Assembly: GCF_900167975.1 (NCBI RefSeq)
Contig: NZ_FUZU01000004.1
Coordinates: forward strand, 496,001 to 560,000
Length of the DNA: 64,000 nt
Origin: Ohtaekwangia koreensis
GTDB taxonomy: Bacteria > Bacteroidota > Bacteroidia > Cytophagales > Cyclobacteriaceae
Reading direction: 5' to 3'
The notes under the pieces are model-generated. The model did no database searches and had not been told where the DNA came from. It saw only the letters and a program-made list of their open reading frames with translations. Below, piece after piece: positions 10,434 through 14,338 of this stretch (positions are counted from its first letter, which is position 1; each line of letters begins with the position of its first letter). The position numbers and the translations under genes are program-made.

Positions 10434-10466
10434 AAACGGGTTCATATAGTATATATGAACCCGTTT
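10434..10466. terminator. 15-bp perfect hairpin between converging genes
   Basis: A perfect 15-bp stem, AAACGGGTTCATATA / TATATGAACCCGTTT, with a 3-base loop. It starts right after the stop of the flavoenzyme gene and ends 19 bases before the stop of the converging siroheme gene. A-rich and T-rich flanks on both sides suit a bidirectional terminator. Confidence 0.8.
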
Positions 10467-10485: not shown

Positions 10486-11085
10486 CTACGGATTAACCGG
10501 TGTAGTTCCTGTTTCCAGGAATGAAGTAGTGATATCGTTTAATACTTTCACTTTATGACTGAAGTCTCCTTTGATCTGCTCGCGAATCTTCTGCATATTA
10601 TTTAACAGGTCGTTTGTGTCTTCAGGCAAAGCTTCTTCCAAATACTCGCGAATCCGTTTTGAGATTGTTGGCGATTTTCCATTGGTGGAAACACCTATTT
10701 TCAAATTACCTTTTGTTACTACTGACCCGAGATAGAAATCACACAAGTCAGGAGTGTCTGCCACATTGATGAGCAGCTTACGCGTGCGGGCAAATTTCCG
10801 GATGGTTTCATGAAGCTGACGATTGTCGGTGGCAAGAATTACCAGGTCTTTATCCCACAGATCCCACAACTTGAAATTACGCTCTTCCAACTTAACGTGC
10901 GCATGTTTTCGTGCAAGCTCTTTAATCGGTTCCTGAATATTACGCGCCACGATGGTGACGTTGGCTGCCGGACTGTTCTTTAGCACTGCGCTGAGTTTTT
11001 CCAACCCAACATTACCACCCCCTACAATAAGGGTGCTTAGTGATTCAAGTTTCAGGAAAACGGGAAAGAGATTGTTGCGTTCCAT
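10486..11085 (-). CDS. precorrin-2 dehydrogenase / siroheme synthase N-domain
   Basis: 199 residues, corresponding to the Met8/SirC-type N-terminal part of CysG. An NAD-binding GGGNVG lies at residues 22-27, then ILATDNRQLHETI, NVADTPDLCDFYLGSVVTKG and GVSTNGKSPTISKRIRE, which carries the conserved Ser. It oxidises precorrin-2 to sirohydrochlorin and may also insert iron to make siroheme. With the SUMT gene 114 bases upstream and the siroheme-dependent reductase before that, it completes a siroheme supply line. It is the last gene of the unit, before the hairpin at 10434. Confidence 0.92.
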   Translation of the reverse strand: MERNNLFPVFLKLESLSTLIVGGGNVGLEKLSAVLKNSPAANVTIVARNIQEPIKELARKHAHVKLEERNFKLWDLWDKDLVILATDNRQLHETIRKFARTRKLLINVADTPDLCDFYLGSVVTKGNLKIGVSTNGKSPTISKRIREYLEEALPEDTNDLLNNMQKIREQIKGDFSHKVKVLNDITTSFLETGTTPVNP

Positions 11086-11199: not shown

Positions 11200-11982
11200 C
11201 TACGCCATCGACTTTGCTGCGAGCACCACCTTTTCAAGTGCTTGTGCATAACGCACTACTTCGCCTACGATGATGATGGCTGGAGCACTGATTTCATTCG
11301 CAGCAGCTAACGATGCAATGGAACTTGCAGTTCCGATTACACTTTTTTGATTCGGCAGCGATCCATTCTGTACAATGGCTACCGGTGTATCTGATTTGCC
11401 ATGTGCAGCAAAAGTTTCCATGATGGCTTCGACTTTAGAAAGGCCCATGAGTATAACGATGGTGGCAGTAGACTGTGCTGCCAATGCTATATCTCCGGAT
11501 ATAGCACCTGCTTTGGTTGTACCTGTAACGACCCAAAAGCTTTCGCTGATGCCACGTGCTGTTACAGGGATTTTAAGGGAGGCAGGAACTGCTATAGCAC
11601 TGCTGATGCCCGGTACAATTTCGGTATGTATACCATGTGCTTCAGCATATTCAATTTCTTCTGAACCTCTGCCGAATACAAATGGATCTCCTCCTTTTAA
11701 CCGCACTACATGGCCATAGCGATAAGCAAAGTCAACGATCAGGTCATTGATCTCTTCCTGCTTGTATGAATGTTCGCCGGCACGCTTACCTACTGAGAAA
11801 GCAGGGATACCTTTGGGAATCCACTCCAATATTTCAGCTGATACTAATGCATCATATAAAACCACATCGGCTTTCTTGAGCGCATTTATAGCCTTTACCG
11901 TGATCAACTCAGGATCACCAGGCCCTGCTCCTACCAACGTAAGCCGTGGTTCTTTTTCCAATATGGAAATTGTCTCGATCAT
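11200..11982 (-). CDS. cobA: uroporphyrinogen-III C-methyltransferase (SUMT)
   Basis: 260 residues. It transfers two methyl groups from SAM to uroporphyrinogen III to give precorrin-2. SUMT signatures: LVGAGPGDPELITVKA near the N-terminus, VVRLKGGDPFVFGRGSEE, PGISSAIAVPASLKIPVTARG, and IVILMGLSKVEAIME. Its ATG overlaps the TGA of the reductase gene by four bases (ATGA), so it is translationally coupled to the enzyme that consumes siroheme. No separate cobalamin genes are nearby, so siroheme is the likely end product. Confidence 0.95.
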   Translation of the reverse strand: MIETISILEKEPRLTLVGAGPGDPELITVKAINALKKADVVLYDALVSAEILEWIPKGIPAFSVGKRAGEHSYKQEEINDLIVDFAYRYGHVVRLKGGDPFVFGRGSEEIEYAEAHGIHTEIVPGISSAIAVPASLKIPVTARGISESFWVVTGTTKAGAISGDIALAAQSTATIVILMGLSKVEAIMETFAAHGKSDTPVAIVQNGSLPNQKSVIGTASSIASLAAANEISAPAIIIVGEVVRYAQALEKVVLAAKSMA

Positions 11983-14090
11983 TTCGCTACTACTTCATTA
12001 CCGATAGCCCGATACGCCATTACATCTTCGAGGAATTTTTTAGAATCCTCCAGATAGGCGATCGCAAATTCTTCAGTAGGTTCATTCTTATTGATACGCA
12101 ATACATGCTCTCTGAAGTTTACCGGCATTTGAAAAAGACCGGTCTCCACAAAATGCTGTTGAAAATCGAGAAGCACCTGAATCTGTGTACTTGGTTTTAC
12201 ATCACGCGTAAGCAATAATGCTTTTGCAGTGTTGATGAATGCGCTATAGCTTTGGTATATAGCATCTGCATAATGTGCATCACGCAGCGCTTCCTTTGCC
12301 CACTCTAACTTCTCTTCAGATTCGTAGAACAAAGTGGCTACGAGATCGATGATCACACCAGCACACTCTCCCACTGCTGTATGCAGAATGAAGTTATGTT
12401 CTTCTCCCCAATCTATATAGTCTGTTGGCACCACACTCGTAAGATCACCCAACGGTTTCAATATAGTATAGAAGTGGTTTCTTCCAATACGCTTGAAGTA
12501 GTCATGGTAATATTCTCCTTCGAGGCTGTTTGCTTCGTAATCATCAAACAAAATACGCAACGCTTGCGGTCCGCGTTTGCTTGGGATCTTCAGGATCTTG
12601 TCTGAAATTATACCCTCGCCATTTTTTAATTTACCACCCCCTAATAATACTACCAGTGCCGGCAATACTTTGCCCTGCTTGTCTTTTATAGTACTACCAT
12701 GTAAACCTATACCGGCAAGTCCATGCTGACCGCACGAGTTCGGGCAACCGCTGATCTTGATCTTGATATCCGTATTGAAAACCATTTCCGGATATTCCTC
12801 TCTGATAACTTTTTCAAGAGCCAGTGAGATCTGTGTACTATCAGATATAGCAAGGTTACAAGATTCTGTGCCAGGACATGCTGTGATATCAGCAACACTG
12901 TCGAAACCAGGTTCTGCCAACGCCAGTTTGTCAAGTGCTACATAGAGATGCTTCAATGCCTCAGGCCGAACAAAGCGAATGAGGTATCCCTGATTTACGG
13001 TAATGCGAAGTTCTGTTGCTGCATATGTATCTACTATATCTGCAAACTCGCGCGCGAGGTTTGACGACATATTACCCAGTGGAAGCTTTACATATACTCC
13101 AAAGAAGCCATCCTGTTTTTGTTTGATCACATTGGTTCTATACCAGCGATCGTATTTATCAGGATTCGTAATAACTGCTTCAGCAGTTGGTATAGCTTCC
13201 GGAAGTACAGGCTCAGGAAGTGTATGAAGATCTATAGTATATTGCTGAACTTTCACCGCCTGTTTTTCTTCTTCTACCAGCGCCATAATCTTTTCAAGAC
13301 CGAGGTCGTCCAGTAAAAATTTAAAACGTGCTTTCATTCTGCGCGTGCGTTCACCATAGCGATCGAATACACGAAGTACAGCTTCTGTAAAAGGAATGAT
13401 TTGATCTTCTTCCAAAAATTCATAAGCTGTTAACGCAAGGGTTGGATTTGCACCCAGTCCTCCGCCAATCATTACTTTGAAGCCACGTTTACCGTCTACA
13501 ATTTTCGGAATGAATCCGAGATCGTGTATAAAACTAAAAGCAGTATCATCATCGCTGGATGAAAACGAAATCTTGAATTTACGTCCCATCTCCTGGCACA
13601 CCGGGTTCCTCAAAAAGTACCGGAACATTTCTTGTGCATATGGAGATACATCGAATGGTTCATTCGGATCTATACCTGCGAGGTCTGATGCTGTGATGTT
13701 ACGCACGGTGTTACCACACGCTTCACGCGTGGTGATATCATCTTTCTCTAACTTGGCCCACAACTCAGGCGTACGATCGAGGCTCACAAAATGTATCTGT
13801 ATATCCTGGCGCGTAGTAGCATGAAGATTCTTACTCGCATACTCGTCTGATATATCTGCTATTCTGCGCAACTGTTTTGTAGTAACGCGACCGAGCGGAA
13901 GTTTAATCCGAATCATCTGCACGCCCGACTGACGCTGTCCATAAATTCCACGTGCCAATCGAAGGCTTCGAAACTTATCACTATCAATCTTGCCCTCGCG
14001 GAAAAGACGTATCTTCTTCTCCAGGTCAAGAATGTCCTGCGCTACTACCGGGTTGTTCAAATCTTCAAGTTCAGTGCGAAAGCTTTGCAT
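11979..14090 (-). CDS. siroheme [4Fe-4S] sulfite/nitrite reductase with HEPN-like C-terminus
   Basis: 703 residues, longer than plain ferredoxin-type reductases (about 510-590). Two ferredoxin-like half-domains (IKLPLGRVTTKQLRRIADIS near 67; VKLPLGNMSSNLAREFADI near 330) alternate with siroheme-binding domains. The cluster ligands are C-P-G-T-E-S-C and C-P-N-S-C in the second half. After about residue 560 comes a helical tail (EWAKEALRDAHYADAIYQSYSAFINTAKALL) resembling a HEPN-type bundle; this fused form is known in Bacteroidota. Homology alone does not separate sulfite from nitrite reductase. The Cys-codon leader upstream (14196-14297) and the siroheme genes downstream favour assimilatory sulfite reduction to sulfide for cysteine. 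Confidence 0.9.
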   Translation of the reverse strand: MQSFRTELEDLNNPVVAQDILDLEKKIRLFREGKIDSDKFRSLRLARGIYGQRQSGVQMIRIKLPLGRVTTKQLRRIADISDEYASKNLHATTRQDIQIHFVSLDRTPELWAKLEKDDITTREACGNTVRNITASDLAGIDPNEPFDVSPYAQEMFRYFLRNPVCQEMGRKFKISFSSSDDDTAFSFIHDLGFIPKIVDGKRGFKVMIGGGLGANPTLALTAYEFLEEDQIIPFTEAVLRVFDRYGERTRRMKARFKFLLDDLGLEKIMALVEEEKQAVKVQQYTIDLHTLPEPVLPEAIPTAEAVITNPDKYDRWYRTNVIKQKQDGFFGVYVKLPLGNMSSNLAREFADIVDTYAATELRITVNQGYLIRFVRPEALKHLYVALDKLALAEPGFDSVADITACPGTESCNLAISDSTQISLALEKVIREEYPEMVFNTDIKIKISGCPNSCGQHGLAGIGLHGSTIKDKQGKVLPALVVLLGGGKLKNGEGIISDKILKIPSKRGPQALRILFDDYEANSLEGEYYHDYFKRIGRNHFYTILKPLGDLTSVVPTDYIDWGEEHNFILHTAVGECAGVIIDLVATLFYESEEKLEWAKEALRDAHYADAIYQSYSAFINTAKALLLTRDVKPSTQIQVLLDFQQHFVETGLFQMPVNFREHVLRINKNEPTEEFAIAYLEDSKKFLEDVMAYRAIGNEVVAK

Positions 14091-14120: not shown

Positions 14121-14160
14121 TTAAAAGAAAAGAGCCTTTCCCGATTTGCAGGAAAGGCTC
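14121..14160 (-). terminator. leader terminator (attenuator hairpin) of the sulfite reductase operon
   Basis: On the minus strand a perfect 10-bp stem, GAGCCTTTCC / GGAAAGGCTC (14160-14151 with 14141-14132, 9-base loop), is followed directly by TTTTCTTTTAA (14131-14121). It sits 30 bases before the reductase ATG and after the leader ORF. That is the wrong place for an end-of-operon terminator and the right place for an attenuator. Confidence 0.85.
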
Positions 14161-14217
14161 GTTATGTTCTGAAAGTTAAATCTTGTCTGAAACCATTACG
14201 TATCCATTATTCCTGCA
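14147..14217 (-). promoter_or_regulatory. antiterminator pairing segments
   Basis: Leader RNA TGCAGGAA (14217-14210, inside the leader ORF) is perfectly complementary over 8 bases to TTCCTGCA (14154-14147), which forms part of the 5' arm and loop of the terminator. Pairing these would destroy the terminator. A competing upstream CTGC (just after the three Cys codons) can pair with the GCAG of the same segment. This gives the alternating segment 1/2/3/4 logic of amino-acid attenuators. Pairing was derived by eye, not by energy calculation. Confidence 0.65.
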
Positions 14218-14297
14218 CTCAGCAGATGTTTACAGCAACACTTCTTTGTTGCGTAAATTTTCATCTTCATGCAGTTGGTGGTGGTGATCATGGTCAT
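14196..14297 (-). CDS. cysteine-codon leader peptide (33 aa)
   Basis: The ORF starts ATG ACC ATG ATC ACC at 14297 and stops with TAA at 14196. The peptide begins MTMITTTNC and contains K-K-C-C-C-K at residues 18-23. Three consecutive Cys codons (TGT TGC TGT, 14240-14232) and one more Cys at residue 9 are far above expectation for 33 codons. The last Cys codon is 14 bases before the antiterminator segment, a spacing that lets a stalled ribosome cover the competing segment. A matching promoter lies 11 bases upstream. By analogy with trp/his/thr leaders it should sense charged tRNA-Cys: low cysteine stalls the ribosome, the antiterminator forms, and the reductase is made. It is too short for routine gene calling. 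Confidence 0.75.
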   Translation of the reverse strand: MTMITTTNCMKMKIYATKKCCCKHLLSAGIMDT

Positions 14298-14307
14298 TAA
14301 TCTACTA

Positions 14308-14338
14308 CGAAAGTAGGGTATGTGATTTTAAAATCAAA
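14308..14338 (-). promoter_or_regulatory. promoter of the sulfite reductase operon
   Basis: Minus strand: TTTG at 14338-14335, a spacer of exactly 19 bases, then TACTTTCG at 14315-14308 (7 of 8 matches to TAnnTTTG). The predicted transcript starts only a few bases before the leader ATG at 14297, so the leader ORF would be almost leaderless. Confidence 0.65.

Follow-up and report, generated by a model that had tools for sequence, protein, structure and literature searches.

A probable cysteine-sensing transcription attenuator preceding a putative sulfite reductase operon in Bacteroidota

The stretch of DNA analyzed here (64 kb; hereafter, the window) carries on its minus strand a 289-bp gap between the stop codon of a DUF4407 gene (14380) and the ATG of a siroheme reductase gene (14090). 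In the direction of transcription, this gap holds a promoter-like site, a short upstream open reading frame (uORF) that includes the segment TGCAGGAA (14217-14210), and a putative intrinsic terminator (14160-14123). All features are collected in Table 1. These parts had been listed in a first-pass annotation, and recounting altered only some of the numbers. The promoter-like TTTG-N19-TACTTTCG element is present, and the spacer between it and the uORF ATG measures 10 bases instead of the 11 claimed. The 33-codon uORF was found as described, with TGT-TGC-TGT as codons 20-22 and a fourth Cys codon, which is codon 9. As had also been asserted, TGCAGGAA lies 14 bases past the Cys run and is an exact complement of TTCCTGCA in the 5′ arm and loop of the terminator (14154-14147). 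The hairpin with its U-run tail contains 12 pairs (10 bp had been given), and 32 bases, as opposed to 30, separate the end of the U-run from the reductase ATG.

Table 1. Features of the leader and of the downstream genes (positions are those of the window).
Feature	Position	Strand	Basis and remarks
Promoter-like site, TTTG-N19-TACTTTCG	14308..14338	-	sequence; one mismatch to the Bacteroidota consensus TAnnTTTG (available text of PMC7366714); weak alone
Leader uORF, 33 codons, peptide MTMITTTNCMKMKIYATKKCCCKHLLSAGIMDT	14196..14297	-	ORF call; translation putative
Cys codons 20-22 (TGT TGC TGT), proposed stall site	14232..14240	-	sequence; further Cys runs are found before homologous genes
Region 1, CTGCAT, partner GTGCAG in the ribosome-free fold	14269..14274	-	MFE and centroid fold
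Region 2, putative antiterminator half TGCAGGAA	14210..14217	-	exact complement of 14147-14154; TGCAGGA kept in the relative L173
Region 3, TTCCTGCA, terminator 5′ arm and loop	14147..14154	-	exact complement of TGCAGGAA
Predicted intrinsic terminator: hairpin (14160-14132) and U-run TTTTCTTTT (14131-14123)	14123..14160	-	12 pairs, including one U-G
Siroheme reductase, NirA type, 703 aa, probable sulfite reductase	11979..14090	-	two stretches of Pfam NIR_SIR and two of NIR_SIR_ferr; under all curated NCBIfam cut-offs
Uroporphyrinogen-III C-methyltransferase	11200..11982	-	4-bp overlap with the reductase gene
Siroheme synthase N-terminal type protein (CysG-N)	10486..11085	-	family search
Terminator-like hairpin past the third gene	10434..10466	-	terminator scan

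As predicted from their sequences, the downstream genes form an operon of a siroheme enzyme and the genes for its cofactor. The best PDB sequence matches of the reductase are named nitrite reductases. A nitrite reductase is allowed by the family scores and is disfavoured, the operon context being against it. Mucilaginibacter aquatilis (L206) has these genes in identical order behind a Cys leader, and there the series continues into cysH, cysD, and cysN. Because of that operon and of the Cys codons in the window leader, assimilatory sulfite reduction is the suggested pathway, and the enzyme is probably a sulfite reductase. In the first-pass name “sulfite reductase”, the sulfite substrate is deduced, with help from the cysH-cysD-cysN operon of the relative. 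The C-terminal part of the reductase (residues 587-651) matches HEPN just below the Pfam cut-off (21.3 vs. 22 bits).

Several features of the leader are not significant alone when scored within the window. The segment TGCAGGAA occurs four times on the minus strand of the window. Genome-wide, exact matches to the promoter pattern are only slightly more numerous than those to the reversed control (52 vs. 43), and the window site has a mismatch to that pattern. Other features do set the leader apart. Short ATG ORFs encoding CCC number three on the two strands of the 64-kb window, and a terminator follows within 160 nt only in the case of the window leader. The fold of the 190-nt leader was bettered by one of 200 shuffles (z = -3.76). 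Such structure would also be expected of a metabolite-binding riboswitch or a protein-binding leader; this explanation is extremely unlikely, since no aptamer-like sequence common to the leaders of different genera was seen by eye. A riboswitch was rejected on the grounds that no Rfam family exceeded its threshold, the best sub-threshold match being rnk_leader (21.9 vs. 50 bits). The weight of the case is carried by conservation and covariation in the sequences of relatives.

Conservation was examined in two sets of upstream stretches. A reductase match was present in 145 of 291 genomes of the window's order; 142 upstream stretches were fetched, and 140 were long enough for ORF counts. Eight rows were left out of this order set: fragments of split genes and a single distant match. 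From 589 confirmed places, the best 80 made up the named set, and some of its genomes are also in the order set (L002/L174 and L013/L207). At least three consecutive Cys in a short ATG ORF were found in 18 of the 140 order-set stretches in the sense orientation, in 0/140 antisense, and in 0.34 per shuffled set; for at least four consecutive Cys in the same stretches, the corresponding values were 11, 0, and 0.02. No other amino acid approached Cys in the same run count, with Ile next (4 sense vs. 0 antisense) and Leu at 11 vs. 11. A looser criterion (three Cys in eight residues) returned 25/140 in the sense orientation, yet 14/140 antisense and 4.6 in shuffled sequences. Applied to 79 loci from the best 80 of 589, it returned 25/79 sense, 3 antisense, and 3.5 shuffled. 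Pedobacter, Mucilaginibacter, Chitinophaga, Pontibacter, and Reichenbachiella are among the genera with leaders in the named set (best 80 of 589).

The distribution of these predicted leaders is patchy. By family, the looser criterion was satisfied in f13 (4/4), f15 (6/6), f4 (3/4), f5 (4/8), f19 (5/16), f16 (1/16), and the window's own family, f1 (2/29); no such leader was found in f11 (0/45), f20 (0/9), f17 (0/2), or f22 (0/1). Cys leaders thus occur before the reductase gene in other genera and are missing in 27 of the 29 genomes of the window's family. The leader peptides are mostly unrelated to one another; what recurs is the Cys codons, the terminator, and a stretch that can pair with the terminator 5′ arm. 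These observations bear on a further alternative, namely that the hairpin is a plain terminator of the DUF4407 gene, which is upstream on the same strand, and that the uORF arose by chance. That proposal is very unlikely: the hairpin is ca. 220 nt past the DUF4407 stop, and other genera also have Cys runs and arm-matching segments at this place.

The nearest named relative among the best 80 of 589 places was L173 (Fulvivirgaceae bacterium JP3-4), whose reductase is 77% identical to that of the window. Its leader consists of MRTRNASPREFKVIKMTWCCMHLHSHAGELE (Trp-Cys-Cys), followed by TGCAGGA and a terminator, GAGCCTTTCCTGCA...GGATAGGCTC plus a U-run, with TCCTGCA contained in the arm. In a pairwise alignment with the window, the terminator arms match column by column, and the TGCAGGA segments are out of register, being located 17 nt (L173) and 14 nt (window) past the Cys codons. 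At the sequence level, the Cys codons and the TGCAGGA/TCCTGCA pairing are retained between the two, and the peptide is different. The first-pass annotation had named the lack of a Cys run and of an alternative stem in close relatives as a result that would refute an attenuator; in L173, Cys codons and a candidate alternative stem are both present, and the proposal was not refuted.

Leaders whose Cys are paired or nearly so, with a terminator after them, were present in 43 of 222 stretches. In 18 of these 43, the spacer beyond the stalled ribosome paired with the terminator 5′ arm better than its shuffles did (p ≤ 0.05); the value for the window's own pairing was p = 0.11. When spacers and arms were compared between matched and swapped species, the matched pair was better (44 rows; mean residual -2.85; null 0, sd 0.35; 0/20,000 permutations). 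Because the row sets of the pairing tests include related genomes, the rows are not independent; with one row per genus group (22 groups), 0/20,000 permutations was again obtained. The same count resulted when six doubtful or hand-added rows were removed (38 rows; 0/20,000). L173 was added by hand to the 44-row covariation and folding sets because its mismatched stem is missed by the terminator scan. Covariation within the terminator was uninformative for Pedobacter (9 rows; the observed value was reached in 272/500 shuffles). For Mucilaginibacter (12 rows), 0/500 shuffles reached it on four of five measures and 52/500 on the fifth, a result owed in part to one divergent row.

The leaders were also folded in a model of the RNA before the terminator 3′ arm is made. 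In 44 rows, the 5′ arm paired upstream with a mean probability of 0.73 when the ribosome was placed on the last Cys codon vs. 0.22 when it was placed at the stop codon; for shuffled spacers, the values were 0.47 and 0.35, respectively (Wilcoxon p = 4e-11; 44 rows). Stall pairing exceeded stop pairing in 41/43 leaders. The window itself gave 0.78 (stall) vs. 0.11 (stop), with 14/1000 shuffles equally different, and L173 gave 0.82 vs. 0.01, with 0/1000. Once the window RNA is complete, its fold favours the terminator (probabilities of 0.998 vs. 0.002), and thus the switch must be kinetic, acting during transcription. With no ribosome, the 5′ arm paired upstream at a mean of 0.62 (43 leaders) and at 0.78 in the window, and stalling added more than 0.3 to this pairing in only 6/43 rows. 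Since the ribosome-free arm pairs upstream about equally well, strong protection by a 1:2 stem would not appear to be a general feature; such a stem was seen in the fold of the window and was weak across the 43 leaders. A five-pair antiterminator register in Mucilaginibacter fits some rows only.

Leaders of the trp/his/thr type feature a uORF with a run of end-product codons and a mutually exclusive antiterminator and intrinsic terminator. The window sequence has an end-product codon run in its uORF and a terminator between the uORF and the first gene, and sequence and folding models together point to an antiterminator that excludes the terminator, is freed by stalling, and is hidden when the ribosome is at the stop codon. 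Very probably, the window leader senses cysteine as a ribosome-mediated transcription attenuator of the classical kind. This was the first-pass interpretation, and it is supported by the Cys codons, the terminator, and the co-varying antiterminator, which recur in other genera. Transcription would start a few bases upstream of the uORF. When Cys-tRNA is ample, the ribosome would reach the stop codon and cover TGCAGGAA, the terminator would form, and the transcript would end before the reductase gene. When Cys-tRNA is scarce, the ribosome would stall at codons 20-22, leaving TGCAGGAA free to capture TTCCTGCA in the nascent terminator arm. RNA polymerase, so antiterminated, would continue into the reductase gene and the two siroheme genes.

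The position of the RNA end was estimated from the promoter. The sigma-A box is located at -12 to -5 (available text of PMC9723704), which would place the window uORF ca. 6 nt from the end of the RNA. The exact spacing TAnnTTTG-N4-ATG was found at 17/80 named loci (best 80 of 589), with none antisense, and all 17 ORFs contain Cys; 16 of these 17 are Pedobacter, Parapedobacter, or Mucilaginibacter records, and one is a Bacteroidetes bin. The spacing occurred once in the order set. An N4 spacing would put the A of the ATG at +1, i.e. the mRNA would be leaderless. In Bacteroides thetaiotaomicron, 5′ UTRs of less than 10 nt account for ca. 3.7%, and Shine-Dalgarno sites are not expected in Bacteroidota (both from the available text of PMC7366714).

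Leaders of other construction were encountered in the same collections. The motif [KR][KR]C[AE]CW[FYH]WCC was present before the reductase in L003, L004, L005, L011, L049, L141, and L175 (with a variant in L176); the counting of Cys codons leaves its conserved Trp codons unexplained, which suggests selection at the level of the peptide. In nine loci (L012, L014, L127, L137, L142, L177, L179, L192, and L196), the uORF has 5-10 consecutive Cys located 0-4 codons before the stop; these uORFs are 236-404 nt from the reductase, and the scan found no terminator. They are perhaps a second class, Rho-dependent or translational. Such designs raise the question of whether the window leader could respond to cysteine by another route, in which nascent-peptide arrest, control of reductase translation by ribosome position, or Rho is the operative element and the hairpin is secondary. 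The recurrence of the Trp-containing motif with synonymous codon changes in the leaders of seven loci is consistent with this, as is the fact that the scan found no terminator in 9/10 leaders whose 5-10 Cys lie close to the stop; Actinobacterial cys leaders are likewise described as terminator-less in the available text of PMC1262725. However, both features (the WCC motif and the terminator-less Cys tail) are absent from the window leader, whose terminator is strong and whose antiterminator co-varies, and for it another route is quite improbable.

Other observations concern neighboring cases. Two tandem Cys-rich uORFs precede one reductase gene in L010, L072, L096, and L135. In genus g46 of family f11 (L048, L052, L054, L057, L059, L060, L062, and L074), whose reductase genes have no Cys leader, a conserved short hairpin (of the CGCCGG...CCGGCG type) followed by TTT(C/A)GTTTT is located ca. 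95-56 nt before the matched reductase start. In the window genome, a uORF ending in CRLHSCKLLCCW, with no terminator, precedes cysC-cysD (L263; contig C4, upstream of 1025519). Strong cysD matches were present in 19/20 genomes (18 over the cut-off), and a poly-Cys ORF was found no more than 1.5 kb upstream in 2/19 (L266 and L271); by the same criterion, there was none in 17 longer cysD upstream stretches from the genomes other than those two. A Cys-run leader was found at 0/6 loci examined before cysK-like and cysS genes in the window genome and L173. Among 30 of the 78 places with CCCC codon runs in the window genome, six were in short ATG ORFs, with no terminator in the next 400 nt in any case.

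The attenuator proposed for the window resembles several known systems. With trp/his/thr attenuators (background in the available text of PMC2965389 and PMC1262725), it shares the end-product codon run and the exclusive antiterminator and terminator; it differs in that it would act on cysteine and sulfite reduction, in a phylum without Shine-Dalgarno sites, with a uORF probably ca. 6 nt from the RNA end. The first-pass annotation had cited Cys leaders in Actinobacteria, correctly, but a tandem-Cys uORF with a terminator is also found before cysS in Rhodobacterales. This uORFC-8-2 motif has an AUG uORF and a terminator stem with a U-run, and ribosome-mediated attenuation is predicted for it (available text of PMC8632094). 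The window leader has the same elements; whereas uORFC-8-2 controls cysteinyl-tRNA synthetase, the window leader precedes a reductase gene, and cysS has no Cys-run leader in the window genome or L173. The short ORFs of Actinobacterial cys/cbs operons also place a Cys run before a cysteine-pathway gene, but their run is near the stop codon and no conserved terminator is described in the available text of PMC1262725, unlike the window leader, which has one. The mycobacterial polycysteine leaderless sORFs (Canestrari 2020, via the available text of PMC13236596) are cysteine-responsive and are described there as acting by translation attenuation. They are similar to the window uORF in being short and Cys-rich, and they are at or near the RNA end, as the window uORF may also be, with a putative 5′ UTR of 6 nt; they differ in being translational and having no intrinsic terminator. 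In the same phylum, clues to leader peptides and transcription attenuation before amino-acid operons are reported for Flavobacterium psychrophilum, with no cysteine or sulfite reductase case in the available text of PMC9723704. A literature search, with most subscription papers outside its reach, turned up no such leader described before a sulfite reductase gene, nor one for cysteine in Bacteroidota, in keeping with the first-pass statement that none was known in Cytophagales. Because Cys-codon attenuators are known elsewhere, the window leader would be a known type of switch in a new setting; as far as was found, a predicted cysteine attenuator before a sulfite reductase gene, in Bacteroidota, is new.

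A broader proposal is that sulfite reduction in Bacteroidota is governed by several leader-peptide designs: classical Cys-codon attenuators, as in the window; uORFs that are exactly leaderless, in Pedobacter and its relatives; leaders that end in 5-10 Cys and have no terminator, perhaps Rho-dependent; and RCxCWxWCC leaders, which may be arrest peptides that sense a sulfur compound instead of Cys-tRNA. We put this forward tentatively and regard it as rather unlikely. The window leader would itself be a well-defined case of ribosome-mediated attenuation acting on sulfur assimilation in Bacteroidota, which have unusual promoters and no Shine-Dalgarno sites. Among relatives in the best 80 of 589 places, predicted leaders of this sort are seen in Cytophagales-type genera, Pedobacter, Mucilaginibacter, and Chitinophaga. 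Attenuation by a near-leaderless uORF thus becomes directly testable in culturable genera, and a role in sulfite reduction is supported for enzymes that resemble nitrite reductases.
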